Assembly (NCBI GenBank): GCA_030123605.1
Contig: CP126123.1
Location: forward strand, 1,364,001-1,428,000
DNA from: Nitrospira sp.
Lineage (GTDB): Bacteria > Nitrospirota > Nitrospiria > Nitrospirales > Nitrospiraceae
Direction: 5' to 3'
Length of the DNA stretch: 64,000 bases
Shown here: piece after piece, positions 1,132 through 33,431 of the stretch
Layout: each line of letters opens with the position of its first letter
Position numbering within the stretch: position 1 is the stretch's first letter
The notes under the pieces: generated by a model
Told to the model about the DNA's origin: nothing
Database searches by the model: none
Seen by the model: the letters and a program-made list of their open reading frames with translations, nothing else
Made by a program: the position numbers and the translations under genes

Positions 1132-1746
1132 ATGACGATGACGGCATCTCTCCCCTACAGAAAACCGGCCGCTGAAGATCGACGCACGCCTTCTGTTCTC
1201 TTCAAGAACAAGGTGGTCGGAACGGTCATCGCCTACCACCGATCGCAACTACACCGGATACGATACCGCGCACGCATGGCCGACGGCTCCACCATCACAT
1301 TTCTCTCCTGCACACTCTCCGTCCGGCCCGACTCTCTGGATATCGGCCAACAGGTCACTCTCGATATCCCACCTCGCGATGTCATCTTGGCCCCTCCTCG
1401 GTGGGTGAGTCCGCTGGAGAACAATTGCTGGCCCGCCCGCGTCGTCCTTTCGGCTGACCACGGCCTCAGTTCCTTGCTGGTGGTGAAGATCCTCGGCAGC
1501 CCATGGACATTGACGAGCACAAAACAAGTGTTTTGGTTGAATCGTCGGCTGCATGCGTGGGATCGAGTGACCGTCTACATTGCTCCGGAGTCCTGTTCCG
1601 TCGTGCGCCGTTATCCCGGCGATCTCCGCCTCCGCCCGCGTCTCCTCACCGAGGCATTCTACAGCCCCGCAGCCGCTCCGACCGTCAAGGGGTCGGCCAG
1701 TCGCCCACCGCACGGACCTCCATTCTTCCATGCAGGTTCGAAATAG
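1132..1746 (+). CDS. Stand-alone TOBE-domain protein, molybdate-binding-like
   Basis: A 204-residue protein preceded by AAGGAGG. The middle (about residues 60-155) resembles the C-terminal TOBE region of ModC ATPases. It has an IPPRDVILAPP stretch, as in the ModC pattern I(A/P)ARDV, and then a second TOBE half around LLVVKILGSPW. There is no ABC ATPase part. Free TOBE/Mop domains bind molybdate or tungstate or act as sensors. The ModA-type protein at 4296 and the XRE regulator at the left edge support an oxyanion context. The C-terminal 30 residues are low-complexity. Exact ligand and role are inferred. Confidence 0.6.
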   Translation: MTMTASLPYRKPAAEDRRTPSVLFKNKVVGTVIAYHRSQLHRIRYRARMADGSTITFLSCTLSVRPDSLDIGQQVTLDIPPRDVILAPPRWVSPLENNCWPARVVLSADHGLSSLLVVKILGSPWTLTSTKQVFWLNRRLHAWDRVTVYIAPESCSVVRRYPGDLRLRPRLLTEAFYSPAAAPTVKGSASRPPHGPPFFHAGSK

Positions 1747-2124: not shown

Positions 2125-2351
2125 GGCCTGTCCTATAAATCCGGTTCGCGCAGGATCTCAGCGACGTTCACCCCGAGCGCGACTGGTACCGGGTCGTTAT
2201 CAAGAGCACGGGGCCGAACTTGCGAGACCTCTCCTCTCGACCTGTTCCATGCCCCGGAATATTCGCATGCAAATTATTTGTTGACATTCTTATTAAAGTT
2301 AATTATTTTAATCTTCATCGGAATTATAGACATTAACAAGGAGTCGAGCGT
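2125..2351. other. Leader region of the YezD-porin-ModA cluster
   Basis: No gene. The second half turns sharply A/T-rich and carries the promoter described at 2281. The rest shows nothing I can name. Confidence 0.5.
2281..2314 (+). promoter_or_regulatory. Candidate sigma70-type promoter, YezD-porin-ModA cluster
   Basis: A perfect TTGACA at 2281-2286 is followed by an A/T-rich run with -10-like hexamers (TTATTT at 2303, TAATCT at 2309). The motif TTGACATTCTTATTAAAGTT resembles that at 508. It lies about 40-70 bases before the YezD start, a sensible distance. Confidence 0.45.
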
Positions 2352-2519
2352 ATGCCATCGATAGCCTTTACAGCGTCCCAGGAAGAAATCAGCGACAAAG
2401 ACCTCGCCTACATCACAACGGCGCTCAGGGGTATTCGATTCGGGTCCGTGGAAATCGTCATCCATGACTCCCGCATCGTGCAGATCGAACGGAAAGAAAA
2501 AGTACGCCTCGAGCGCTGA
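2352..2519 (+). CDS. YezD family (DUF2292) small protein
   Basis: A 55-residue protein beginning MPSIAFTASQ. The body matches the YezD pattern: LAYITTALRGIRFGSVEIV followed by HDSRIVQIERKEK. AAGGAG lies 8 bases before the ATG. YezD proteins are of unknown biochemical function but are often found beside sulfate, sulfonate or other oxyanion uptake genes. Here a porin and a ModA-type binding protein follow, matching that pattern. Confidence 0.8.
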   Translation: MPSIAFTASQEEISDKDLAYITTALRGIRFGSVEIVIHDSRIVQIERKEKVRLER

Positions 2520-2646
2520 CCATGCTCGTTTAAGGATTTTGTCCGGCAACCGGGTGCCAGATCACTGAACCCGCGCCCATTTACATTCATCGATCGGGGA
2601 ACTGACCGGACGACCGGAAGTTCTCATGTCATGGAGGGAGCAAGAC

Positions 2647-4257
2647 ATGAGAACGTTCGGTATGGCCATATCGTTCGTCTTTGCGGCAGCCCTGCTTTCA
2701 GCGGCACCGGCACCAGCCGTCGAGGAAGGGCAGCTCGTCAAGAAGGACGGCAAGTGGGAGTATGTCTCGACGGAAGACCCCGGACTGAAATACCTCTATC
2801 TCAAAGGCATCATCACACAGCAGGAGTACGAGCGTGGTCTCAAGGTCCTTGAGACGAAAGAATACGCGGCGAAACCGAACTACAGCATCGACGTCAACAA
2901 CGGACTGAACATTCGAGTCGGCTCGAAGTTCTTGCTGAAGATGCGGCTGCTCACTCAGGTGAGATACACCTACCACACCTATAATGAAGGATGGGCGACG
3001 ATCGGTGATTCCAGAAACCCGGAGGTTCTAGGAGGACAGGTCGAATTCAGAGCTGTCAGAAAGCAGAGTAACACCAGTGATTTCACGGTACCCCGAGCCA
3101 GACTCCAATTTCTGGGTTACGCGTTCGATCCCGACCTTCGGTACAATTTTTCTGTCGCCTTTGAGCAAACCGAGTGGGATCAAGAAGGCGGCAGTGGGCG
3201 AGCCAGCATTCTCGATGCGTATGTCTCTTCCTGGCACATTCCCTGGGCGACGATCCAGGTCGGGCAACAGCGGGTGTGGTTCAACCGCGCGCTCATTTCT
3301 TCGATGGCGACGTCGTCTTTTGCAGACAATTTGATCGTGCAGAACGCCTTCGCCGCCAACCAAGTGAACCGACGTGACATCGGCATCAATATCTTGAGCG
3401 ATGAAGATCAGTACAAATTCAACTATGCCGTCGGCGTCTACAATGGCACCGGTCGAAATCTGGCGGAGGAAGGCGTCGCCGTCAGCCAAGCATTACCCAA
3501 CAACAATAGTATTCCCGCTGCCCAGCGGCGCACCTTCAACTATGACACGCGCTTTCTTACAGGCGAAATGATGTACACCGTCCGCCTCCTCTATAAAGTC
3601 TCCGGCAATCCTGGGTATGGCCAAGGAGACATTCTGAATTCCCGCACTCCGCAAATCGCCCTTGCGGCTGGGTATGCGTATAACCCCGCGCAGAACTATC
3701 TCAGCTCGATCCGATCCGATATCGTCGATCGCTACTATCGCCAACAGGTAGCCAAGAACTTCAACGGGAGGCTGCTTGGGGGAGGCGTGTATGATTTCCA
3801 GACCTACGAAGTGGATGTCATCGCTAAGTATCAGGGATGGTCATTACAAGCGGAAGGTTACTATCGTCATCAACGTGTGCGTTCCCATGACTCAGGCACC
3901 ATCGCCTTCGATCCGACAACCGTGCCGATCGGCCCGCAAGTCGAGTTAGGACAGGCCTATGGATGGTACGTCCAGGCCGGCAAATACATCATTCCACGGA
4001 AGCTCGAATTGGCCGTACGCTATGGCTTTATGGATCCGTCAACGAGACAGACGCACGACCTCACCAAGGAATTCGGCGTCGCGCTGAACTACAGCTTCGA
4101 CGGCACATACAACAACCGCCTGATCATCGATTACACGAACTTCACGATCGGCAGCGGAGGCAGTGCTCCCGACCGTGCCCCATTTGAATCGCTGCCGGGA
4201 TTCGGACGCGACCTCGTCGAAAATCGAATCAACGTGCAGTACCAATTCTACTTCTAG
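2647..4257 (+). CDS. Phosphate-selective porin (OprO/OprP family)
   Basis: A 536-residue outer-membrane protein. The ATG at 2647 has GGAGGG 8 bases upstream and opens straight into a signal peptide (MRTFGMAISFVFAAALLSAA, cleavage near APA-VEE). The frame can be extended to 2626 but without a ribosome site. After a short N-terminal segment the protein alternates polar and aromatic residues as in a beta-barrel and ends ...NVQYQFYF, with the terminal aromatic used by the BAM machinery. OprO/P porins pass phosphate, pyrophosphate or other anions. The downstream binding protein suggests an anion that both handle. The specificity-determining lysines cannot be judged by eye. Confidence 0.8.
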   Translation: MRTFGMAISFVFAAALLSAAPAPAVEEGQLVKKDGKWEYVSTEDPGLKYLYLKGIITQQEYERGLKVLETKEYAAKPNYSIDVNNGLNIRVGSKFLLKMRLLTQVRYTYHTYNEGWATIGDSRNPEVLGGQVEFRAVRKQSNTSDFTVPRARLQFLGYAFDPDLRYNFSVAFEQTEWDQEGGSGRASILDAYVSSWHIPWATIQVGQQRVWFNRALISSMATSSFADNLIVQNAFAANQVNRRDIGINILSDEDQYKFNYAVGVYNGTGRNLAEEGVAVSQALPNNNSIPAAQRRTFNYDTRFLTGEMMYTVRLLYKVSGNPGYGQGDILNSRTPQIALAAGYAYNPAQNYLSSIRSDIVDRYYRQQVAKNFNGRLLGGGVYDFQTYEVDVIAKYQGWSLQAEGYYRHQRVRSHDSGTIAFDPTTVPIGPQVELGQAYGWYVQAGKYIIPRKLELAVRYGFMDPSTRQTHDLTKEFGVALNYSFDGTYNNRLIIDYTNFTIGSGGSAPDRAPFESLPGFGRDLVENRINVQYQFYF

Positions 4258-4295
4258 TGCCTCACAGAGGGCAGCGCGAGCATCAGGAGGACCAC

Positions 4296-5120
4296 ATGAC
4301 AGGACGGCATGGTTTCGTTGGAATCGCGGTTTTTTTCAGCGTGCTGATAGGGACCGGCTGGAATCCCTCGCCCGTGCAGGCGCAGCCCGAGACATTAACG
4401 ATCGCTGCCGCGAATAGTCTCAAGGATGCGCTGAGGAAGGTCCTTCCGCTCTTCGAAGCCCAATACCCGGAGAGTACGCTGCGGATCGTGTACGGGCCCT
4501 CGCAAACCCTCCGCACGCAGATCGAACAGGGCGCCCCCGTGGATATCTTCCTCCCATCGTTGTCCGAGGAGATCGATCAGCTTGAAAAAAAGGGGTTGAT
4601 CGTTCAGAACACCAAACGCATTTATGCCGGCACATCCTTGGTCCTCATCGCAGGGGCGACGTTCCCCGCGCCGATCACGTCCATTCAAGAATTGCATACG
4701 ACCCCCGCGCGCCGGATCGCGATCGGAGATCCCAAAACCTCCTCCGTGGGAAAGGTCGCAGCGCAATTCCTCCAATACAGCCGGCTCGAACCGAAACTGA
4801 AATCTCAATACGTCTTCGGCGAACACTCCCGGGCCGTGCTCGATCTCGTCGCAAACGGCGACGCTGAGATCGGCATCGTCTATCGAACGGATGCCGCGTT
4901 GAACAAGAAGGTCCGGATTCTCGATACCGCGCCGATCGAGTCTCACGCGCCGGTCCACTATGGAGTGGCACTCCCCTGGACGGCGAAGAACATCTCGGGA
5001 GCCGACGATTTCGTCAAGTTCTTACTGACGCCGCACATTCAGACACTCCTACAACAATATGGATTCGACCGCGTATCATCCGATGACGGCGCGGCTCGGT
5101 CGCAGGAGGGACAGCGATGA
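4296..5120 (+). CDS. modA: Molybdate-type ABC transporter substrate-binding protein
   Basis: A 274-residue exported binding protein. The ATG at 4296 has AGGAGG five bases upstream. A signal peptide (GIAVFFSVLIGTG... ending VQAQ) precedes LTIAAANSLKDAL, the usual ModA start. Other ModA features follow: the VYGPSQTLRTQIEQGAPVD region, the hinge IAIGDPKTSSVGKVA, and NGDAEIGIVY. No permease (ModB) or ATPase (ModC) gene is nearby, so it is an orphan component in this window. Its stop overlaps the next start (ATGA). Molybdate is the likeliest ligand; tungstate or a related oxyanion is possible. Confidence 0.8.
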   Translation: MTGRHGFVGIAVFFSVLIGTGWNPSPVQAQPETLTIAAANSLKDALRKVLPLFEAQYPESTLRIVYGPSQTLRTQIEQGAPVDIFLPSLSEEIDQLEKKGLIVQNTKRIYAGTSLVLIAGATFPAPITSIQELHTTPARRIAIGDPKTSSVGKVAAQFLQYSRLEPKLKSQYVFGEHSRAVLDLVANGDAEIGIVYRTDAALNKKVRILDTAPIESHAPVHYGVALPWTAKNISGADDFVKFLLTPHIQTLLQQYGFDRVSSDDGAARSQEGQR

Positions 5121-5836
5121 AACCGATTCGAGAACATCGAGGACCATGGGCTGTGCGCGCCATCTCCATGATCATCGGGTTGTCCATCGCCGCCGGCTGC
5201 GCAAGCCCGCCGCTCGTGCCGAAAAAGACGATTCACCAATCGGGATTGAACACCGTGTGGCTGGAACCGGATCCGGACTCGACGTCCAATACCCACCCGA
5301 TCTCCTTGACGCCGACCGAGGTCGGTACGTTACTGCGAGGCGTTCGGTCGTGGGAACGACGCAATGTGCTTCACCGGTTGCTTGCCGGACAGGCCGATAA
5401 GACCAGAACGTTTCGGGACGAAGAAATTGCCATCCTCGCCCCTTCCCTGTCCAAGGCCTTGGCCCAAGCCTCTCCCTCGGAGCGAATCTATTTCCATCTG
5501 AGTCATCCGACCGAACAAGGCAACGAGGAGACGACCACGGGCTGGATTTCGGTGAGAGGCCCCCTTGTGTACCTGTCTCTCAGCGAGGCCCACGACCAGC
5601 ATAGCCCTGGTCCGGACATCAGTAAATATGACCGTCAAATGCCGAACGTGCCGGAGGTCTCACCGGAATTCGACGTGACCTTCGAGCCCGAGGAATTCCT
5701 CGTCAAGGTGAGTTCTGTCGGGCGCCTGTTCGCCCCCGATCAGCGCGAAGAACTGCAGATCCGATACCGCGAAGCCCTGTCTTCCATGCCCATCCAACCG
5801 GGACTGGAGCGAGGAGGAGAACGGCCGCAGCCGTAA
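5117..5836 (+). CDS. Lipoprotein of a two-member paralogous family
   Basis: A 239-residue protein starting in ATGA overlap with modA and preceded by AGGAGG. The signal ends in the lipobox IAAGC, so it should be lipidated at Cys about residue 27. The central pattern LTPTEVGTLLRGVRSWERR then TFRDEEIAILAPSLSKALAQA is clearly shared with the lipoprotein at 32688-33431 (LSHEQVRRLLMGL, MFRDAEIAILVPQLVEALRLA). No enzymatic motif. Function unknown; co-expression with modA is likely from the overlap. Confidence 0.7.
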   Translation: MKPIREHRGPWAVRAISMIIGLSIAAGCASPPLVPKKTIHQSGLNTVWLEPDPDSTSNTHPISLTPTEVGTLLRGVRSWERRNVLHRLLAGQADKTRTFRDEEIAILAPSLSKALAQASPSERIYFHLSHPTEQGNEETTTGWISVRGPLVYLSLSEAHDQHSPGPDISKYDRQMPNVPEVSPEFDVTFEPEEFLVKVSSVGRLFAPDQREELQIRYREALSSMPIQPGLERGGERPQP

Positions 5837-6010
5837 GTCGCATGCGATGGGAAAGGTCTCCGAACCGAATAGACCGGAGAGCGAAACTGTGACAGGTGCG
5901 CATGATTGGTGATACTGTGTCATCGATACATCAGCCGCCGCTGTCGAAAACGAAGGGTGGTTCGGCGGGGCTTGACGCCGAACCTCTCCTTCCGGTTACA
6001 GGAGGACGTC

Positions 6011-6403
6011 ATGTTCGGTCCCATTACGATCCCATTCGGAGCGAAGATGCTGTTCAACACCGTGAAACTCAAACCCGGTGTCACCTTCGACGACGTGGAG
6101 TTGGCTGTCGGGGAACTGTGCAGTATCGTGAAAGATACCTACGGCGGGGACAAGGGAGGCTTCATCGCCGGGCAGGTGTTCAAATTTTCCGGCTTCATTT
6201 CAGACGAAGGCTCCCTCAACCAGTCGAGGGACGCCGAGCAACATTACGCCATCGTGACATACTGGCGCTCATATACGGATCACGAACGATCCCACGCCGA
6301 CCAGGTCTTCCGCCACACCTTCGCCAAAGTGGTGTCGATGTGTTCGGAAACGAAGGAACTGGGGTATGACCTGTTGTGGCAGGGCGAAGTCCAGAGCCGC
6401 TAG
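6011..6403 (+). CDS. Small protein, possibly dimeric alpha/beta-barrel fold
   Basis: A 130-residue protein. The ATG at 6011 has AGGAGG upstream; the longer frame to 5906 has none. The sequence alternates strands and helices (MLFNTVKLKPGVTFDDVELA; AIVTYWRSYTDHERSHAD), as in stress-responsive or antibiotic-monooxygenase-like dimeric barrels, but no cofactor residues can be asserted. It sits alone between a lipoprotein and a kinase gene. Family assignment is tentative. Confidence 0.6.
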   Translation: MFGPITIPFGAKMLFNTVKLKPGVTFDDVELAVGELCSIVKDTYGGDKGGFIAGQVFKFSGFISDEGSLNQSRDAEQHYAIVTYWRSYTDHERSHADQVFRHTFAKVVSMCSETKELGYDLLWQGEVQSR

Positions 6404-6466: not shown

Positions 6467-8005
6467 ATGCGCTGGCTCCACGACCGCTCGATCGGACAAA
6501 AATTCTTCATCTCCTTCGGGGTCATCCTGACCCTCCTGGCCCTGAGTCTGACGGCCCTCATCTTCTACCTCAGCCGCATCAACAGCTACGTCGATCGCCA
6601 TAAACGCATCACCGTCCCGGCCATCGTCACCGCGGCCACCATGCAACGCGCCGTCTACGAACTGGACATGACCTTCCTCTCCCTGGAACAACTGGGGAAG
6701 GAAGCGGACGTGGCCCAAGCCGTCTCCCGCTTGACGGTCCAGGACGAACGTCTCCGCCGCTTGCTGGAATTGTATCGATCCACCCATGCCGCTCGCACGC
6801 ATCCGATTCTCTTCGGCATGTTGACGGAGCACCATCGGGTGGACCTGGCCGATCAAGAAGATCGCGCCATCGCCGGGATCGAACAGGCATTGCACGAATT
6901 GAATGTCCTGTGGAAACCCGACGCTTCGCTATCACAGGCACTAGCCGCAGGCGACCGCCTCCCCTTCGTCAATGCCGACAGATTGTTGACTCAGCTCATG
7001 GAAGATCTGGACCGACTGGTCCAGGCCCATACGGACATCGACGCGGAAATGAAAGTGGAAGGCGATTTGCTTCTGCACCAAGCCCGGCTGATTGCGCTGG
7101 GCCTGGTGGCAATCCTCGGCCTGGTGATCACCGTCATCTATCTCTCGGTCAACCGGCAGATCGCCAGACCGCTTCAGCGGCTCGCGGTCACGGCCGACCG
7201 CGTCGCCCACCACGACCTCACGGCTCACTTCGAATCCTGGGCCAACCGCGATGAGGTGGGCACGTTGGCCGCCTCCCTCTCTTCCATGGTGATCAGCCTG
7301 CGCGAACAGACCGCCGCCACCGCCCGGAAGACGAAAGAACTCGAAGCCTTCACCTATTCGGTCGCACACGACCTCAAGGGCCCCTTGCGGGAGATCGAAG
7401 GGTTCTCCTCCTTACTGGAGAAACAATTTTCCGACAGCGGCGAGCCGCAAACCCGTCATCACATCGAGGTCATCCGCCGATCCGCCCTGCGCCTCACGCA
7501 TATGATCGACGCCCTGCTCAAATACTCGCGCCTGGAACAACAGGACCTGCCGCGTCAACGCTTCAACGTGCTGGAGATGATCACCGGCCTCATCACCGAC
7601 CGGTTCAGCGGCCTGCAGGGTCCGAAACACAAGGTTCAGGTCGCCCTCCCCTTTGCCGATCTCTACGGCGAGCCGGTCAGCATTCGGCAGGCACTCGTCA
7701 ACCTGCTCGACAACGCGGGAAAGTTTTCCCGCCTGGCTGCGCCCCCGACCATCACCATCGGCGGCACCCAGACGGCGACCGAACGAATCCTCTGGATACA
7801 GGACAACGGCATCGGATTCGATCAGACGCAGCACGACAAGATTTTTGGTCTCTTTGAGCGATTGCACGGTCCACAGGACTATGAGGGAACGGGGGTCGGC
7901 CTGGCCATCGTGAAACTGGTCATGGACAAACACAACGGAAGGGCCTGGGCCGAATCCACCCCAGGAACGGGCAGTAGGTTCTACTTAGCGTTCCCAACGT
8001 TGTGA
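6467..8005 (+). CDS. Membrane sensor histidine kinase (HAMP-HisKA-HATPase)
   Basis: A 512-residue kinase. TM1 is at about 14-35, a mostly helical periplasmic sensor at 36-200, TM2 at about 205-227, HAMP at 228-280, then HisKA with YSVAHDLKGPLREIEG (phospho-acceptor His301). The ATP-binding domain has the N box ALVNLLDNAGKFS, G1 DNGIGFD, F box FGLFERL and G2 EGTGVGLAIV. It should phosphorylate the sigma54 activator that begins about 76 bases downstream. The sensor domain resembles four-helix-bundle ligand sensors; the signal is unknown. The ribosome site is weak. Confidence 0.88.
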   Translation: MRWLHDRSIGQKFFISFGVILTLLALSLTALIFYLSRINSYVDRHKRITVPAIVTAATMQRAVYELDMTFLSLEQLGKEADVAQAVSRLTVQDERLRRLLELYRSTHAARTHPILFGMLTEHHRVDLADQEDRAIAGIEQALHELNVLWKPDASLSQALAAGDRLPFVNADRLLTQLMEDLDRLVQAHTDIDAEMKVEGDLLLHQARLIALGLVAILGLVITVIYLSVNRQIARPLQRLAVTADRVAHHDLTAHFESWANRDEVGTLAASLSSMVISLREQTAATARKTKELEAFTYSVAHDLKGPLREIEGFSSLLEKQFSDSGEPQTRHHIEVIRRSALRLTHMIDALLKYSRLEQQDLPRQRFNVLEMITGLITDRFSGLQGPKHKVQVALPFADLYGEPVSIRQALVNLLDNAGKFSRLAAPPTITIGGTQTATERILWIQDNGIGFDQTQHDKIFGLFERLHGPQDYEGTGVGLAIVKLVMDKHNGRAWAESTPGTGSRFYLAFPTL

Positions 8006-8081
8006 GAGTGATGCGTTGTTCGTGACGCATCCGGATCAAGGCGACACACGAGAGACACGCGCCGCGAAACGAAATCACGCC

Positions 8082-9422
8082 ATGCACATCCTCGTCATCG
8101 ACGATGAAGAATTCGTGCGCCTCGTCGTGGAACAGGCGCTTCGCGAAGAAGGCTGCGACGTGCAGACGGCCGCAGGCGGGCAACAGGGCATCGATCGTCT
8201 CCGTGCCGCTTCATTCGACTGTGTCATCACCGATCTCCGCATGCCCGGCATCGATGGATGCGCGATCATCCGTTGGGTGAAAGACCATCAACCGGATGTC
8301 GATGTGATCGTGTTGACCGGCCATGGCGATGTGAAGGATGCCGTCGCAGCCATCAAAGACGGCGCGTGGGATTTTCTCATCAAAGACACTCCGTTCGACG
8401 GCACAGCCGTCAAGGCCACCCTCGCCAAACTCAGGACGGTCCGCGGACTTCGACGCGAGAACCTGGCCGCCCGTCACGGAGGCTATCGGCAGGATGCGAT
8501 CGTCGATGGTGTAAGCGACGCCTGGCGGGCATTGCAGGCCCAGATCGCTCGGGTCGCCCCCTCGCAGGCTCCGGTGCTCGTTCAAGGAGAAACCGGTTCC
8601 GGGAAAGAAGTCGTGGCGCGTCTGCTGCACGCCCGGAGTCGCCGAGCCGAAGGGCCCTGCATCGCCGTCAATTGCGGAGCGATCAGTCGCGAGTTGCTGG
8701 AGAGCGAATTATTCGGATATGAGAAGGGCGCGTTTACCGGCGCCGTGGCGGCAAAGCCCGGGCTGCTCGCCGCCGCCGAGGGCGGATCACTGTTTCTGGA
8801 TGAAGTCGGCGAAATGCCGGGGCCGATGCAGGTGAGCCTGCTGCGGTTTTTGGATTGCAACGAATACCGTCCCGTCGGCAGTACGCGCACCCTTCGGGCC
8901 GATGTCCGCATCATCTGTGCGACCAATCGGGACTTACAGGAACTGGTGTTACAAGGCCGGTTTCGCGACGACCTCCTCTATCGCATCAACACCGTCACCC
9001 TGCCGGTTCCGCCCTTGAGGGAACGGCGCGAGGACCTCCCGACCCTCGTCGGCTATATGCTGAACAACCTCCACATGCCGGGACCGACGGTGCGAACGGT
9101 CTCTCAGGAGGCGCTCGAACTCCTGACGGCTTACCGCTGGCCCGGCAACATCCGCGAGTTGCGCAATGTCATCGAACGCATCGTGCTCATGAGCCCGAAC
9201 CGCGGACCGATCACCCGTGAAGAGGTACTGCAGGTGCTTCCTCGAACACCATCGACGCCCCCCGATGATCCCGCTCAGCTTCCGCTCGACGAGATCGAAC
9301 GGCTGCACATCGAACGTGTGCTCAAGGCCAACGGCGGCAACAAAACCAAAGCCGCCCAGACCCTCCACATCGACTACAAGACCCTGCTGGCCAAACTGAA
9401 GAAGTATGAACTCGGAAACTGA
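8082..9422 (+). CDS. NtrC-family sigma54-dependent response regulator
   Basis: A 446-residue regulator. The receiver (1-120, phospho-acceptor Asp51 in CVITDLRMPG) is followed by an AAA+ domain with Walker A GETGSGKE, the sigma54-contact loop GAFTGA, Walker B SLFLDEVG, and a C-terminal Fis-type HTH (KANGGNKTKAAQTLHIDYKT). I start it at ATG 8082, where the receiver begins; a TTG further upstream would add an unlikely extension. Partner of the kinase at 6467. It needs sigma54 promoters, none of which I could place confidently nearby. Confidence 0.88.
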   Translation: MHILVIDDEEFVRLVVEQALREEGCDVQTAAGGQQGIDRLRAASFDCVITDLRMPGIDGCAIIRWVKDHQPDVDVIVLTGHGDVKDAVAAIKDGAWDFLIKDTPFDGTAVKATLAKLRTVRGLRRENLAARHGGYRQDAIVDGVSDAWRALQAQIARVAPSQAPVLVQGETGSGKEVVARLLHARSRRAEGPCIAVNCGAISRELLESELFGYEKGAFTGAVAAKPGLLAAAEGGSLFLDEVGEMPGPMQVSLLRFLDCNEYRPVGSTRTLRADVRIICATNRDLQELVLQGRFRDDLLYRINTVTLPVPPLRERREDLPTLVGYMLNNLHMPGPTVRTVSQEALELLTAYRWPGNIRELRNVIERIVLMSPNRGPITREEVLQVLPRTPSTPPDDPAQLPLDEIERLHIERVLKANGGNKTKAAQTLHIDYKTLLAKLKKYELGN

Positions 9423-9476
9423 GAACCCTCTGGTGAGATCCACGCGGGATTCTCTGTCGCGACAGGCACTGCTCCG

Positions 9477-11873
9477 TTACTTTTTCTGTTTGGCGCGCGC
9501 CAACGCGAGGGCGAAAGCGCCGCTGGGTTGAGGCTCGCGCGACGCCGAGCGCTGCTGATCGGTCGAGCGACGATCGCGTGTTTGTTGTGTGCCTCCCGCG
9601 CGGGGGCCCGACTGCGGCGATGCGACCGGTGCATCGTCGGTACGCATGGTCAAGGAAATCCGTTGGCGAGGCCCATCGACCGCCAGCACCTTCACCTTGA
9701 CGATCTGCCCAGGCTTGACGACTTCGTGCGGATCCTTGACGAATGTGTTCGCCAGTGCGGACACATGGACCAGTCCGTCCTGATGCACGCCGATGTCCAC
9801 AAAGGCTCCGAAGGCCGCCACATTGGTCACCACTCCTTCGAGCACCATGCCGGGCTGCAGATCGGCAAGGGATTCGACACCGTCCCGAAACGTCGCCGTC
9901 TTGAATTCCGGACGCGGATCGCGGCCGGGCTTTTCCAACTCCGTCAAGATGTCGCGAACCGTCGGCAGGCCGAAGGTCCCGTCGGTGAATTCGGCCGGAG
10001 ACAATCCCTGCAGCGCCACAGGTCTGCCCATGACCTCGCCGATTTCTTTGTTGAGTCGGATCAATATACGTTCGACTACCGGATAGGCTTCCGGGTGCAC
10101 GGCGGATCGATCCAACGGATTGTCGCCCCCGTTGATGCGCAGAAACCCCGCCGCCTGCTCGAACGTTTTTTCGCCCAGACGCGGTACTTTGCGGATCGTG
10201 AGGCGATTCAAAAAAGGACCGTTGGCATCGCGGTACTCCACGATATTTTGAGCCAACGTTCGATTCAGGCCCGAAACCCTGGCCAGCAACGGGGCCGAGG
10301 CCGTATTGACGTCCACCCCCACGGCGTTGACGCAGTCTTCCACCGTCGCATCGAGCGATCGCGCCAGAGCGCGCTGGTTCACGTCATGTTGATATTGACC
10401 GACGCCGATCGATTTGGGTTCGATTTTGACCAGCTCAGCCAACGGATCTTGCAATCGCCTGGCAATCGACACGGCGCCGCGCAGACTGACATCCAATGAC
10501 GGAAACTCGGCTGCGGCAAAGGCGGACGCCGAATAGACCGAGGCACCAGCTTCGCTCACCACGATCTTGGCCACCTTCTGTTCCGGCCGCTTCTCCATCA
10601 CCAGCTTGATCACTTCAGCGGCAAACTTGTCCGTTTCACGGCTGGCGGTCCCGTTGCCGATCGAGATCAGTTCGACCCCATGCCGGATCACCAACTGCGC
10701 GATCGTCGCCAGCGAACCTTGCCGGTCGTTACGCGGTTGATGCGGATAGATCGTCGCCGTCTCCAACAATTTTCCGGTGGCGTCCACGATCGCCACTTTG
10801 CAGCCGGTGCGCAGACCCGGATCAAGACCAAGCACGGCCTTGGGGCCGGCAGGCGCCGCCAGCAGCAGCTCATGGAGATTGCGGCCGAAAATCTTGATGG
10901 CCTCCGCTTCCGCCGCTTCACGCACCTGCAGCAGCAGCTCGGTGCTGAGGTGCATATGTATCTTGACGCGCCAGGCCCAGTAACAGACATCCGCGAGCCA
11001 CTTGTCTGCGCGACGGCCGCGATGCTCAATGCCGAAATGAGCGGCAACCACAGCGGCACAGGGGTGCGGCACCAAGGCTTCAAGGCTCTCACCCAGGCCC
11101 AGGTCGAGCTTCAGCACCCCCAGCGTGCGACCTCGAAACAGGGCCAGCGCGCGATGCGAGGGAATGGTGCGGATAGTCTCCGAATAAGCGTAGTAGTCGC
11201 GAAACTTTTCTTCTTCGGCCGTCTCTTTCCCCGGTACCACCGTGGAAGTCACGATGCCTTCGTTCCACAGTTTTGTGCGCAGGGTGGCGAGCAGATCGGC
11301 GGTTTCGGCGAAACGCTCGACCAGAATATCACGGGCCCCCTCGAGCGCAGCCTTCGCATTGGGAATGTTGACGGCCTCGACTCCTTCGACCGCCGCGATC
11401 ACCTTTACGTACTTGGCGGCTTCCTGCTCCGGGTCGAGCGTCGGATCGGCGAGCAAGGCATCGGCCAAGGGTTCCAACCCCGCCTCACGAGCCATCTGGG
11501 CCTTCGTGCGGCGCTTGGGCTTGAACGGCAGGTAGATGTCTTCCACCGCCTGCTTCGTGGCGGCCTGCTCGATGGCACGGCGTAGCTCGTCCGTCAACTT
11601 GCCCTGTTCTTCGATCGACGCCAGGATCGCCACGCGCCGCTCTTCCAATTCGCGCAAATACAACAGGCGCTCTTCCAAGGTGCGCAGATGCGTATCGTCC
11701 AGATTGTTGGTGGCCTCCTTGCGATAACGCGCGATGAAGGGCACCGTGGCCCCACCGTCCAGCAGCGCCACCGCCGCCGCAATCTGCGGCGAGCCGACGC
11801 CCAGTTCCTTGGCAATGAGATCGACGATGGTCTTCTGTGCCGCTGCTGAAATAACTGAGGTACTAAGGGACAT
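9477..11873 (-). CDS. tex: Tex family RNA-binding protein
   Basis: A 798-residue protein of normal length for Tex. Order: N-terminal helical Tex region, YqgF/RNase H-like fold ([20 protein letters not shown]), helix-hairpin-helix region ([20 protein letters not shown]), and C-terminal S1 domain ([21 protein letters not shown]). The tail is low-complexity and basic. Tex binds RNA and affects transcription or elongation. It converges on the sigma54 regulator with a 54-base gap. Confidence 0.93.
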
Positions 11874-12221
11874 GGCTGGCAGTTACCGGACTTTCCGCAA
11901 ACAGCGCCTTGCTGCATGACACTCGTCGTGCCACCAGGCGCTGTCTTGCTATTGAAGGTTGCAGTTTGTGGATGAGGAACTGACTATTGTTCCGTCAACA
12001 TCGAACGATGAAATAGGCTGGTGGCACCAAGGGCGTTTCCGACTGTCGGGAGCCATGCCTGAAAAACGTGGCCTCACCTGCAAGGCCCGCGAGGGAATCT
12101 AACAGAAGAGCCGAGGAACGTCCAGATAGAAGATCCTCCCGGACCGGTACCAGGCTCACAGAAAAGGATTTCTCGCGACAGGAGCATGTAGCCCCTGCCG
12201 GCGACACTCACGGTGGAACCA
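11874..12221. other. Intergenic region upstream of tex
   Basis: 348 bases with no supportable gene. A weak TTGACG hexamer lies on the minus strand (11993-11998) in front of tex, without a clear -10. Confidence 0.5.
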
Positions 12222-12434
12222 TCACCAGATGGAAATGACGCCTTCTTCCACGGTTCCGCCGCGAGGCGCGTTCCGCAACGACGGTCGCACAAGGCGGTTG
12301 TGGCAGATCACTGAATCCTCGACATTTCCACAATTGACGCAGCGGCTGCCGAATTTCCCGACACGCACGTCTTCATGCGTCACATCATACAGCGATTCAA
12401 CCAGCATGAACCCATCGCAACGTGTGCATTTCAT
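12222..12434 (-). CDS. Small zinc-ribbon protein
   Basis: A 70-residue protein starting MKCTRCDGFMLVE with CxxC near residues 3-6 and a second CVNC about 30 residues later, a two-knuckle zinc ribbon. The ATG at 12434 has AAGGGGG about 6 bases upstream; the longer frame has no ribosome site. It is divergent from the three-gene operon at 13079 and shares its upstream region. Role unknown. Confidence 0.65.
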   Translation of the reverse strand: MKCTRCDGFMLVESLYDVTHEDVRVGKFGSRCVNCGNVEDSVICHNRLVRPSLRNAPRGGTVEEGVISIW

Positions 12435-13078
12435 CAATGCCCCCTTTCGATAGACCCTCCTGCGTCGTTCCCTGCCCTCATGTTGGGAAAGCAGTTCCAT
12501 GTTGATGCAGGGCACATACCAGGGCCGATGCATCACAATGGAGACACCAAATCGTTGTAATGACGAGGGCTTTGCGTGAAGAACCACCAGACGGAGTCCT
12601 GCTATCGTGCGAAATCTCACGGTTCTTCACGGTGAAACCGTACGAGATCGTGATATGTCGCGAGTCGTTCTCTCTTTCCGCCTCTCGGGTGAAGAGGTGA
12701 TGGAGATCTGATCAGCGCCCTGCCTATGAAGGTCGTTGCTTTGATCCGCATAGGTGCTCCCCCTCATTTGTAGGCTATCCGTTGTATCTCTTTTGATAAC
12801 ATCGGATCCGCCGTTCAGATACAGTTCGACCTCATCCCCCATGTGTATGGAATACACGTATTACGTATCCGGCGAGAAAATCAGCACAATGGTTTTCCGT
12901 CGTCTTGGCACACCATTTGCGCACGAATTCACTATTCGAACGAGTAGGACTTCGGTCATGCACACCGGAACGACAGGCTTCCGCATCCATCAACAGCAAT
13001 GGACCTCTTGTCATCGGGTGCGAGTGACTGTAGGTGAGACCCGCCGCAGCCCTCTCTTGCTTACAGTCGGAGACTCGT
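12435..13078. other. Divergent control region of the TPR/SIR2-TIR/STAND operon
   Basis: 644 bases without a supportable gene, visibly more A/T-rich than the housekeeping genes. It holds an imperfect palindrome ATACACGTATTACGTAT (12852-12868). Near the operon start, GACTGTA (13026-13032) and TACAGTC (13062-13068) are inverted arms that could fold just before the ribosome site. No clear -35/-10 pair. Confidence 0.45.
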
Positions 13079-16469: not shown

Positions 16470-19400
16470 TCACCTTGTCCGAACCCCACACCGAACTGAA
16501 CGCTCATAACCCATGGCCGGGTTTGGATGCGTATGAAGAAGCCTCTCACGCCTTTTTCTTCGGTCGAGACGAGGAAGCTGCGGAGATGTTTCGGCTCGTT
16601 CGATTGGCACCGTTGACGGTTGTCTATGGGAAATCGGGCCTTGGCAAAACGTCCCTCCTTCAGGCCGGGCTCTATCCGGAACTGCGAAAGCAGCACTATT
16701 TACCGGTCCATGTGCGGCTGCAATTCGCGAACATCGGAATGGTCTCACCACTTCAACAGGTCATGCGGCGACTCACAGAGGAAATGGACCGAGGAAACAC
16801 TGAATACCCTCAGCCTCGCGATGGAGGCAGCCTGTGGGAATATTTGCATCGTAAGGATCTGAAAATTTGGAGTTGCGATAACTTTCCGCTTACTCCGGTC
16901 TTGGTGTTCGACCAGTTTGAAGAGCTGTTTTCGCACAAAACCGGCGATCCTGAGCTAATCACCGATGTTATCTACGGTTTGGCGGACCTTATAGAAAATC
17001 GCATCCCGCCTGAACTTCTCAAAGAAGGAGCAAGGGCCGTCAGATCATCGTTGGACCTTCGCTCTCAGCACTATCGCATCGTACTTTCTTTCCGCGAAGA
17101 TTTTTTGCCTGAAGTGAAAACTTGGGAAGAGCAGATCCCTTCGCTGTTGCGCAATTGCCTGCGGCTCAATCCGATGTCAAGGGATCGCGCGATCGAGGCG
17201 GTCTCGCTGGCCGGGAAAGCGGTACTCGACGCGGAAGTGGCACCATTCATCGTCGATTTAATCGGCAGACGGGACCATGCATCTGACACAGCCAATCCGT
17301 CCGAAATGGTCGTTGAGCCCGTGCTGCTGAGCCTCTGTTGTTCCCGGCTCAACGCTCGACGGACCGACGGCACAAAGATCGACCAGGTATTGGTCGAGCA
17401 AACCGGCCAGGATATCTTGGACGGTTTCTATCGAGAAGCTCTCGACGACGATGCGGTGAAGGGCCCACCCGATGTCGCATTGTTCATCGAGAACTACCTG
17501 ATCCAAGGCGATCACTTTCGAGGCGACTACCCAAGAGAGGAAGCGCTCAACAAGAATTTACTCGCTGAGAAACAGTTGGCCGCACTCACTGACAAGCATC
17601 GCCTGTTGCGGATCGTGCCTCACCCCGACACCACGCGCGTGGAGTTGATCCACGATCGCCTCGTTCCCGTGGTGCGGAAAGCCAGGGACGAACGTAAGAT
17701 CAAACAGCACCAGGAAGAACAGGAACGTTTGGCTAGGCTGGCTCAGGACGAGCGTGACAAGGAACGGGCCAGGAGCGAAGAGTTGCAAGCCGAACGTGAT
17801 ACGGCTCGCCATAGCCTCAAGATTGCGAGGCTTATGCGCAATATCGCGGCCGTGACGGCGATTCTGAGCTTGGTCGTGATTGGGTGGGGTCTTCGGGAGC
17901 GAGCAGAAAAGGAACGTGCGAAACAGAGCATCACTGTCGCCGTGAATACGGCACGGCTCGCCGAAGGACGTTTGGCTCTGGGGACAGGCATGGAACCCTT
18001 GGAGCAGACCATATATCGAGGGCTCGCTGCCTATCGATTGAGTCTGCGGCATCAAGGATTGGCGGAGGTCCGAGCAGCAAGCCTGACTATGCTCCATTCG
18101 GTCATGGAACGTACGGCGCATCTACATAAAGCCTTCACAGTTCACGGCCTCGTGCCGACGCCTGCACTCGCATACAGTCCCGACGGTAAGACAATTGCTG
18201 TCGGTGGAGAGGACGGCTTGATCCGTTTGCTCGATGCTGAAACCTATCATGAAACCGGCAAATTGGATTGCGGACAATCGGCCCCGGAATCCGTCTGGTC
18301 CCTCGCCTATAACAGCGGCGGCACGCGTTTAGCAGCCGGATATTCGACCAATGACGACAAGGTCACTGGGAACGGTTTGGTCTGTGTATTCGATGTGGAG
18401 CATCGTAAACAACTACACCGGTTCGAAAAGGATGGAGTGGGCGACATCTATAGCGTGGCCTATGGTGGTACGCCTGAAACGGAGTTTATCGTCTCCGGCG
18501 GAACCGACAAGATGCTACGGTTATGGGACATTAAAACCGGCAAGCCTCGCGAATTCTCCCACAAAGATAAGGTGATTGCCGCGGCAGTCAGTCATGACAA
18601 CGGATTGGTAGCCTCTGGTGGAGACGACGGTATCATCAGACTGTGGGACCGTGACACACTCGCGGAACAGCCGGGGGAATTGCATGGACATGGGGCCACG
18701 GTGCAGCAAGTGGTCTTTTCACCGACCGACCAAAATCTCCTGATTTCAGCCGGGGATGATGGACTCATCATTGCCTGGAATCTCACGGAACGTTGTCGCA
18801 CACAGCAGAGTACGCAACAGCCAGTCAAGATTGTCAATTTTGCCTTGGGTCCGGATGGGCTAATCGCAGCCGCAAGTGCCGATGGATACGTGCGGGTTTT
18901 CCGCCTTTTAGAAAATGTGACACCCTGCACCAACCCCAAGGGAAAGGCGATCACATCTCCTCCTACTCCGGAATTCTTGATGATTCAGGATGGGGAGTTT
19001 CCTGGACATGGTGGGTTCGTCTTGGGGACAGCCTTTAACCCTGAAGGAACTCGACTGGCATCTACCGGACAGGATGGATCGATTCGCATTTGGAGCGGCA
19101 AGAGCCCTGGGTTTTCGCTTGCGCAGTTGGATTTAAGTTCAGGTGCGGAAGTGGAACACACATCCTCAAGACCAGGCAATGTCACCACCCTCGCGATCAG
19201 TCCGAACAGTGAATCCATAACCGTGGGAGACGACAACGGCACCATCTATCTGTGGAACTCAATTCATCAGCCTGATTTCAACCCGGTCACATTAAAGGCA
19301 GATCGGCATTGGCACGCGCACGACAAGGCAATCCGTAGCCTGGCATTCTTACGAATCGGTAATCAATCGATGATTGTGTCCGGAGGCGACGACGGCGTGG

Positions 19401-32687: not shown

Positions 32688-33431
32688 TCAAATGCTCTGG
32701 CCGGGAAAGACCCTGGCGAGGTCGATGACGAGTTCGTCCTTGGAATTGGCCAGCAACCCGTCCCACAGGCTGGTGCTTTGATGAATCACTGCCTGGTCGA
32801 GATCGAAAAACAGATCGAACCCTTTGGAGACCACGGGGTTCATGGGGTAGCGCCGATCGTAGATCATACCGTAGGCCGGAATCCCGTACACCGTCTGCCA
32901 ATTTCCCAGAATGAAGTGGAGCTCGGTGCCCCTGATATAGAGTCCGCCCGACGTAATGATGCGCTTGATCGACGTTTGCGGTTGGCTCAGATAGTAGGTC
33001 ACGCGCTCGTTCTCCCGCGCCAACCGCAACGCTTCGACCAATTGCGGCACCAGGATCGCAATTTCCGCATCACGAAACATCGGCAATCGGCGAGCATTGC
33101 CGGACAACCAGCGCTGAACGGTCGCCTGGTGTTCCTGCACCGTGAGTCCCATGAGGAGCCGCCGCACCTGTTCATGAGACAGCGTGACCGGATGGGTGAA
33201 ATGGCCGGGCGGCCATTCCGGCAACACATTGGCATCCGATTCGAGTCGGACGAAATTGACTGGGTCTTCGTAGACCGTGCGGGACGGAACTTGAGGAATG
33301 GCGCAGCCGGCGATGAGCGTCGCGGCGACGTACAATGGCAAAAGAAAAAAGGCAAAAATGAATGACGCCGGTCTCCCGGCGCCATACTCTTCACTTCGTA
33401 CTGTGTGCTTCGTGCTTCGTACGTCCATCAT
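32688..33431 (-). CDS. Lipoprotein, paralogue of the one at 5117
   Basis: A 247-residue protein with a lipobox LIAGC after a hydrophobic stretch (FIFAFFLLPLYVAATL). It shares RDAEIAILVPQLVEALRLA, the HPVTL...LLMGL block and GGLYIRGTELHF with the other lipoprotein. The annotated ATG overlaps the cyclophilin stop (ATGA) but the first 22 residues look like decayed intergenic DNA, so a later start is possible. Converges on tolC. Confidence 0.65.
   Translation of the reverse strand: MMDVRSTKHTVRSEEYGAGRPASFIFAFFLLPLYVAATLIAGCAIPQVPSRTVYEDPVNFVRLESDANVLPEWPPGHFTHPVTLSHEQVRRLLMGLTVQEHQATVQRWLSGNARRLPMFRDAEIAILVPQLVEALRLARENERVTYYLSQPQTSIKRIITSGGLYIRGTELHFILGNWQTVYGIPAYGMIYDRRYPMNPVVSKGFDLFFDLDQAVIHQSTSLWDGLLANSKDELVIDLARVFPGQSI

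Follow-up and report, generated by a model that had tools for sequence, protein, structure and literature searches.

A conserved Nitrospira operon of a porin, a ModA-family protein and a lipoprotein: a candidate front end for sulfur oxyanion uptake beside a molybdate operon

The window analysed here is a stretch of 64,000 nucleotides, bases 1364001-1428000 of the 4.3-Mb single-contig genome of a Nitrospira sp. Four genes on its + strand (2352-5836) encode, in order, a small YezD/DUF2292 protein, a porin (PorW), a ModA-family protein and a lipoprotein (LipW). Our favoured reading, held with a little better than even confidence, is that these form the outer-membrane and periplasmic front end of sulfate and/or sulfonate acquisition. 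PorW would pass a sulfur oxyanion across the outer membrane, the ModA-family protein would capture it in the periplasm, and LipW would probably tether or dock the binding protein at the membrane or the porin. Uptake would be completed by an ATP-binding cassette (ABC) importer, encoded in the same gene run in many relatives (CysTWA or SsuABC-like) and elsewhere in this genome (Sbp-CysTWA); the operon may be induced under sulfur limitation. Facing away from it on the other strand is a separate molybdate operon, which in this genome carries a paralogous porin, binding protein and lipoprotein. Sulfur is preferred to molybdate as the cargo because of the sulfur gene sets that follow the module in most loci, the kinship of YezD to OscA, the pairing of YezD with SsuABC in genome G172 and the occurrence of four molybdate operons without the module.

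Crossing of the outer membrane by sulfate and molybdate is usually left to general porins. A module with a conserved promoter in which a specific-looking porin is coupled with proteins of the ModA type and with importers for sulfur or molybdate would make outer-membrane selection between two competing oxyanions directly testable. Among the titles and abstract openings listed in searches of the open-access literature, no paper on this cluster appeared, and wordings like ‘sulfate-selective porin’ and ‘molybdate porin’ gave no hit.

The YezD gene (2352-2519) encodes a PF10055 member (E 2.3e-17; 62.7 bits, cut-off 22). The porin gene follows at 2647-4257 (alternative start 2626), the ModA-family gene at 4296-5120 (alternative start 4257) and the LipW gene at 5117-5836. 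The gap between porin and ModA-family genes is 38 bp, and the ModA stop and LipW start overlap by 4 bp; from this spacing the genes from YezD to LipW likely form one operon. The promoter (2279-2322, + strand) consists of a TTGACA -35 element, a spacer of ~17 bp, a TATTTT -10 element and then TCATCGGA. When upstream regions of relatives are aligned, the TTGACA, the spacing, a TATTTAAT-like -10 and the final element are all conserved. The pattern TGTTGACA-N26-31-TCAYCGGA has exactly one match in each of 25 of the 29 same-genus genomes, and the pattern read backwards, as a control, has none in the 29. In 24 genomes the match is at the window locus (G020 is counted here, its match lying on the contig with the paralogous porin, which we treat as part of one split locus), and in G004 it lies elsewhere. 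This conservation is far above chance. Where two porin genes are 24-32 kb apart (G010, G013 and G016), the element stays with the window operon. The initial annotation had placed a YezD gene, an OprO/P-type porin, a ModA-type protein and a lipoprotein after one promoter, and this arrangement is borne out by PF10055, the OprP fold model, TIGR01256, the lipoprotein Cys28 and the pattern in 24 of 29 genomes.

A Pfam scan of PorW returned no porin domain, and PF07396 was not matched at E ≤ 1. An AlphaFold model built from an alignment of 31 sequences is of moderate confidence (mean predicted local distance difference test score 67.7, predicted template modelling score 0.66) and has 16 long strands, counted by eye. 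Its best PDB fold match is OprP (2o4v; E 3.4e-16, template modelling score 0.65 by target length), with OprO second; general porins also match, with weaker E-values. By its modelled fold PorW is an OprP/OprO-type barrel, and we label it OprP-like by fold rather than as a Pfam member since it lacks the PF07396 match seen in its paralogue PorU (50.3 bits, cut-off 20.9), the porin of the molybdate operon. OprP and OprO, the anion-specific porins of Pseudomonas aeruginosa, are the best two kinds of PDB match and have the barrel in common with PorW, but the identity is 12%, and PorW has an extra N-terminal stretch and differs in gene context.

LipW has an invariant lipobox-like Cys28. A fold search against the PDB gave no match at E ≤ 0.001, and the docking role is therefore one that we infer. 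This Nitrospirota family was matched in 107 of 295 phylum genomes, with up to 10 matches per genome. A third member of the LipW/LipU family in the present genome (window 32688-33431, - strand) is 29% identical to LipW and adjoins a gene that looks by eye like a peptidyl-prolyl isomerase.

A porin homologue occurs in 27 of the 29 same-genus genomes. Neighbourhoods were compared for 24 of these genomes in 27 stretches, the other five genomes being G002, G007, G008, G015 and G020. The porin, ModA-family and lipoprotein genes stand in order in 23 of the 24 (G028 has no porin), and the molybdate operon is found in all 24, on another contig in G009 and with ModC cut by the contig end in G024. Among 14 genomes of other genera, picked from strong lipoprotein matches, the window module lies beside a ModB/ModC set in 10, and only the molybdate operon is found in four. 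In a search of the 295 phylum genomes, the full-length porin matches listed (E below 1e-200) all fell inside the family. The window module is missing from its place beside the molybdate operon in genomes G148, G161, G172 and G262, each of which has one porin match genome-wide; absence of the porin was established by genome-wide search, and absence of the ModA-family and lipoprotein genes refers to the stretches. In G172, where PorW, ModA and LipW are missing here and the genome has no second porin, YezD, a racemase, SsuABC and a kinase/regulator pair remain. Because the molybdate operon stands alone in four genomes and YezD-SsuABC is kept in G172, the two systems are separable, and YezD goes with sulfur in G172. 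A dedicated outer-membrane path for an oxyanion, through an OprP-fold porin, a binding protein and a lipoprotein, had been proposed initially; as a prediction from fold model and gene order it is upheld and extends across the family.

The genes after the module were classified by what follows the lipoprotein gene on the same strand within 3.5 kb. Ten of 73 stretches were dropped for want of a LipW match; the remaining 63 reduced to 50 distinct loci by lipoprotein DNA, and 48 of these had ≥800 bp of downstream sequence. Sulfur-uptake genes follow LipW in 32 of the 48: CysTWA in 14, a lone sulfate-binding protein (Sbp) in 11 and an SsuABC-like set in 7. They are present in 14 of 26 own-genus loci and 18 of 22 others, of which 9 belong to other genera and 13 are named loci of unchecked genus. 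The gap between LipW and the sulfur set is ~33-631 bp between match edges, some loci being measured to an Asp/Glu racemase gene that stands first. Since one slot holds three different cassettes, the association more likely arose repeatedly than by descent from a single accident.

Representative products pass their NCBIfam cut-offs: Sbp (TIGR00971, 479 bits), CysT (TIGR02139, 433), CysW (TIGR02140, 408), CysK (TIGR01139, 439), SsuA_fam (TIGR01728, 177) and the lone Sbp of N. defluvii (TIGR00971, 215). The CysA-like ATPase passes, among the models listed, only a broader sulfate subfamily model. The Ssu-type ATPase (in its best 25 models) and permease match sulfonate, taurine and nitrate models, none at cut-off. 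Cysteine synthase follows in several CysTWA loci. The usual CysPTWA and SsuABC operons are not known to include a porin and a lipoprotein; here such importer genes, lone Sbp counted, come directly after the module in the 32 loci. The window's genome differs in that its importer is encoded elsewhere: an Sbp-CysTWA set lies 1.2 Mb away at ~191-195 kb (stretch L185, 7262-11187, with an Rrf2-like gene to 11626), its genes labelled by eye and the permeases also by sequence match.

YezD stands before the porin in 2 of 26 own-genus loci and at least 17 of 22 other loci, at least 19 of 48 in total, counted at an E limit of 1e-5, under which some short or weak copies, for example in G135 and L168, go uncounted. 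An intergenic stretch of locus L158 holds what reads, by eye, as a decayed YezD remnant. The related OscA is a DUF2292-type protein, and the passages on it in two papers (PMC2996968, PMC3596284) describe oscA and sbp of Pseudomonas corrugata as one transcriptional unit, clustered with genes for sulfate ABC transporter components and overexpressed after chromate. The oscA work that these papers cite (Viti et al. 2009, P. corrugata 28) names the sulphur starvation response in its title. The P. corrugata 28 unit and the window, so far as those passages describe the former, both place a small gene of the DUF2292 type before the gene of an oxyanion-binding protein; unlike the window, the unit is described there with no mention of a porin, a ModA-type protein or a lipoprotein.

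On the opposite strand before the window lies the molybdate operon, here given in coordinates of the adjoining stretch L005, whose base 18001 is the window start. It is headed by a regulator of 410 amino acids (aa) at 17012-18244 with XRE-type helix-turn-helix (HTH_3) and PBP_like (PF12727, E 1.5e-59) domains, which is also similar to the C-terminal part of a model for a molybdopterin biosynthesis protein (NF011068; 202.9 bits, under the cut-off of 534). The operon further encodes a ModA-type protein, the paralogous lipoprotein, PorU, a weak TOBE-like protein under cut-off, a second ModA, a CbiQ-like protein, two proteins of amino-acid-kinase fold, an HTH+TOBE protein, ModB and ModC; interspersed on the + strand is a gene that looks EF-hand-like by eye. 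A ModA of this operon scores 212.6 bits, above its NCBIfam cut-off. ModB (5113-6096; TIGR02141, 229.4 bits, cut-off 182.6) and ModC (4034-5128; a molybdate/tungstate-type ATPase under the modC cut-off) lie ~12-14 kb before the window. With ModA, ModB, ModC and its own porin and lipoprotein on the opposite strand, this operon is head to head with the window operon and is, judged by its genes, a complete molybdate uptake system back to back with it.

The initial annotation had seen only the window. Its XRE regulator (1-205, - strand) does contain HTH_3, but is the N-terminus of the 410-aa protein, which continues beyond the window edge. The statement that there is no permease or ATPase was an artefact of that edge, since ModB and a ModC-type ATPase belong to the larger cluster, and the ‘orphan’ ModA-type protein loses that description for the same reason. 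Four ModA-type genes were found in the genome, two of them directly before the window. A further one (stretch L006, 9549-10385, - strand) is 41% identical to the window protein, keeps the ligand residues and lies beside genes that by eye resemble resistance-nodulation-division efflux genes.

Nitrite oxidation in Nitrospira, through its nitrite oxidoreductase, needs molybdenum. Two open reading frames of 1158-1159 aa in the genome match a type II dimethyl sulfoxide reductase model under its cut-off, which fits a molybdenum-dependent nitrite oxidoreductase. At L005 7505-9186 (- strand), ~9-10.5 kb before the window, is a pair resembling the molybdenum storage proteins MosA and MosB; one of the two proteins of amino-acid-kinase fold matches the Azotobacter molybdenum storage protein at E 1.9e-65. 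Some MosAB match occurs in 67 of 118 family genomes, but a strong one in this genome (G000) only, the best other being E 1.1e-7; MosAB was therefore rejected as a common part of the cluster, and the pair was probably acquired. A search of the genome for nifD gave no match, so nitrogen fixation by way of the nifD family does not account for the pair. Between the storage genes and ModA, the CbiQ-like protein (9259-10563, - strand; PF02361) has an extra half that looks membrane-like by eye.

Several observations weigh against a sulfur cargo. The window ModA-family protein scores 157.6 bits with TIGR01256 (cut-off 62.5). It retains equivalents of S12, S39 and Y170, the side-chain ligands of Escherichia coli ModA; this is the strongest point for molybdate, and in the alignment the protein itself has no ligand-residue loss. 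Of the 48 loci, 41 have a ModB or ModC homologue in their stretch, which makes the molybdate linkage at least as frequent as the sulfur linkage, and no sulfur set follows LipW in 16 of the 48, the window's own locus included. YezD reaches 56.6 bits with the OscA model NF033785, under the cut-off of 85, and in this the window protein is unlike OscA. DUF2292 occurs in 2 of the 29 genus genomes, one copy each and both at this locus; the other 27 lack it, so that in most of the genus the porin is kept but YezD is not. No copy of the promoter element was found before the genome's separate sbp-cysTWA operon. Nor was one found before the regulator gene of the molybdate operon in four scanned stretches with the operons apart (G000, G013, G014 and G021), a result that in itself favours the sulfur reading; the element thus fails to tie the window operon to either regulon. 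Finally, in two of the 10 genomes of other genera that have both systems (G287 and G219), and likewise in the named loci L164-L166, L169, L170, L173 and L180, the porin on the molybdate side is a different one and LipU and ModAu find no match there; a picture of one module per anion is thus not universal.

In a rival reading the porin, ModA-family protein and lipoprotein would feed the ModBC importer of the divergent operon as extra receptors, a molybdate path that we regard as possible though rather unlikely. It would agree with the family score and ligand residues that the window protein has in common with ModABC importers, with the PDB sequence matches of that protein (15 of the 15 listed are named molybdate- or molybdenum-binding or transport proteins) with the presence of ModBC, ModA and the molybdenum-storage-like pair within 14 kb and with the ModB or ModC linkage of 41 loci. 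The permease and ATPase of such an importer belong to the divergent operon. That operon, however, already encodes a porin, a lipoprotein and two ModA-type proteins of its own here and stands without the window module in four genomes. Equivalents of S12, S39 and Y170 are retained in 30 of 33 aligned rows, the window protein included and some genes counted twice; the changes are confined to the orthologues of L167, L170 and L180, and CysTWA follows all three. The L170 protein (11647-12501, from Nitrospira sp. BO4), with all three residues replaced, still scores 141.8 bits with TIGR01256, and that of L180, with ligand residues replaced, 135.4 bits as ModA. The cargo thus cannot be read from the family score, nor from a ‘ModA’ label in databases. 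Molybdate, which the initial annotation had thought the likeliest cargo, gives way to sulfur in our reading with the separate molybdate operon adjoining, sulfur genes after the module in 32 of 48 loci and DUF2292 leading in at least 19, even though the ligand residues are kept. The synteny comparison in Nitrospirota that it had suggested found the module conserved in the family, with those sulfur sets in 32 of 48 loci and ModB/ModC in the same stretch in 41.

Two further explanations are less probable still. The ModA-like protein might remove periplasmic molybdate that competes on the sulfate importer, or serve both oxyanions, the sulfur and molybdate systems being kept together since both anions compete. 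This improbable role would account for a molybdate-type binding protein, with its ligands mostly kept, inside sulfur operons that already have Sbp or SsuA, and for the adjoining of the two systems in many loci. Binding is here deduced from sequence, however, and the CysTWA-linked proteins of L167, L170 and L180 have lost at least one ligand residue. We give very little credence to chance neighbours that share their place by synteny only, with the module serving another anion, for example phosphate as for OprP: the best fold match is that phosphate porin and these genomes hold other members of the lipoprotein family, but the finding of three different sulfur cassettes in one slot speaks against it.

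Building on a sulfur front end, we tentatively suggest, while doubting that it will hold in full, that many Nitrospiraceae have two back-to-back oxyanion import systems, for sulfur and for molybdate, each with an OprP-like porin, a ModA-family protein and a lipoprotein from one duplicated module. Anion choice would then start at the outer membrane, and the sulfur-side ModA-family protein would be either retuned to sulfate or sulfonate or guarding the sulfate importer against molybdate.

Between the regulator and the operon, a TOBE-like accessory protein is encoded at 1132-1746 (+ strand). Its description in the initial annotation as a TOBE-only protein is weakly borne out (PF08402, 18.9 bits, cut-off 21; two of five relatives pass, at 23.9 and 23.6 bits). 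The gene was found in 6 of the 24 genus genomes with compared neighbourhoods. A fixed part for it in the path was rejected on this count, and it is probably not part of the operon; the storage or sensing function once proposed for it is likewise not supported as part of this path, and the molybdenum-storage-like pair outside the window is a better candidate for storage. Two copies of a dispersed repeat flank the gene (856-1066 and 1805-2130), resembling a repetitive extragenic palindromic or miniature inverted-repeat transposable element; the repeat has 60 matches in the genome, several being pieces of one copy. A small protein encoded at 602-859, with zinc-ribbon-like cysteine pairs seen by eye and Pfam matches under cut-off, accompanies the TOBE-like gene in six loci. 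On the 3′ side of the operon are a histidine kinase (6467-8005, + strand; HAMP, HisKA and HATPase_c), a neighbour in many but not all relatives, and its partner, a sigma-54-type response regulator (8016-9422, + strand; Response_reg, Sigma54_activat and HTH_8, scanned from 8085), both placed also by synteny.

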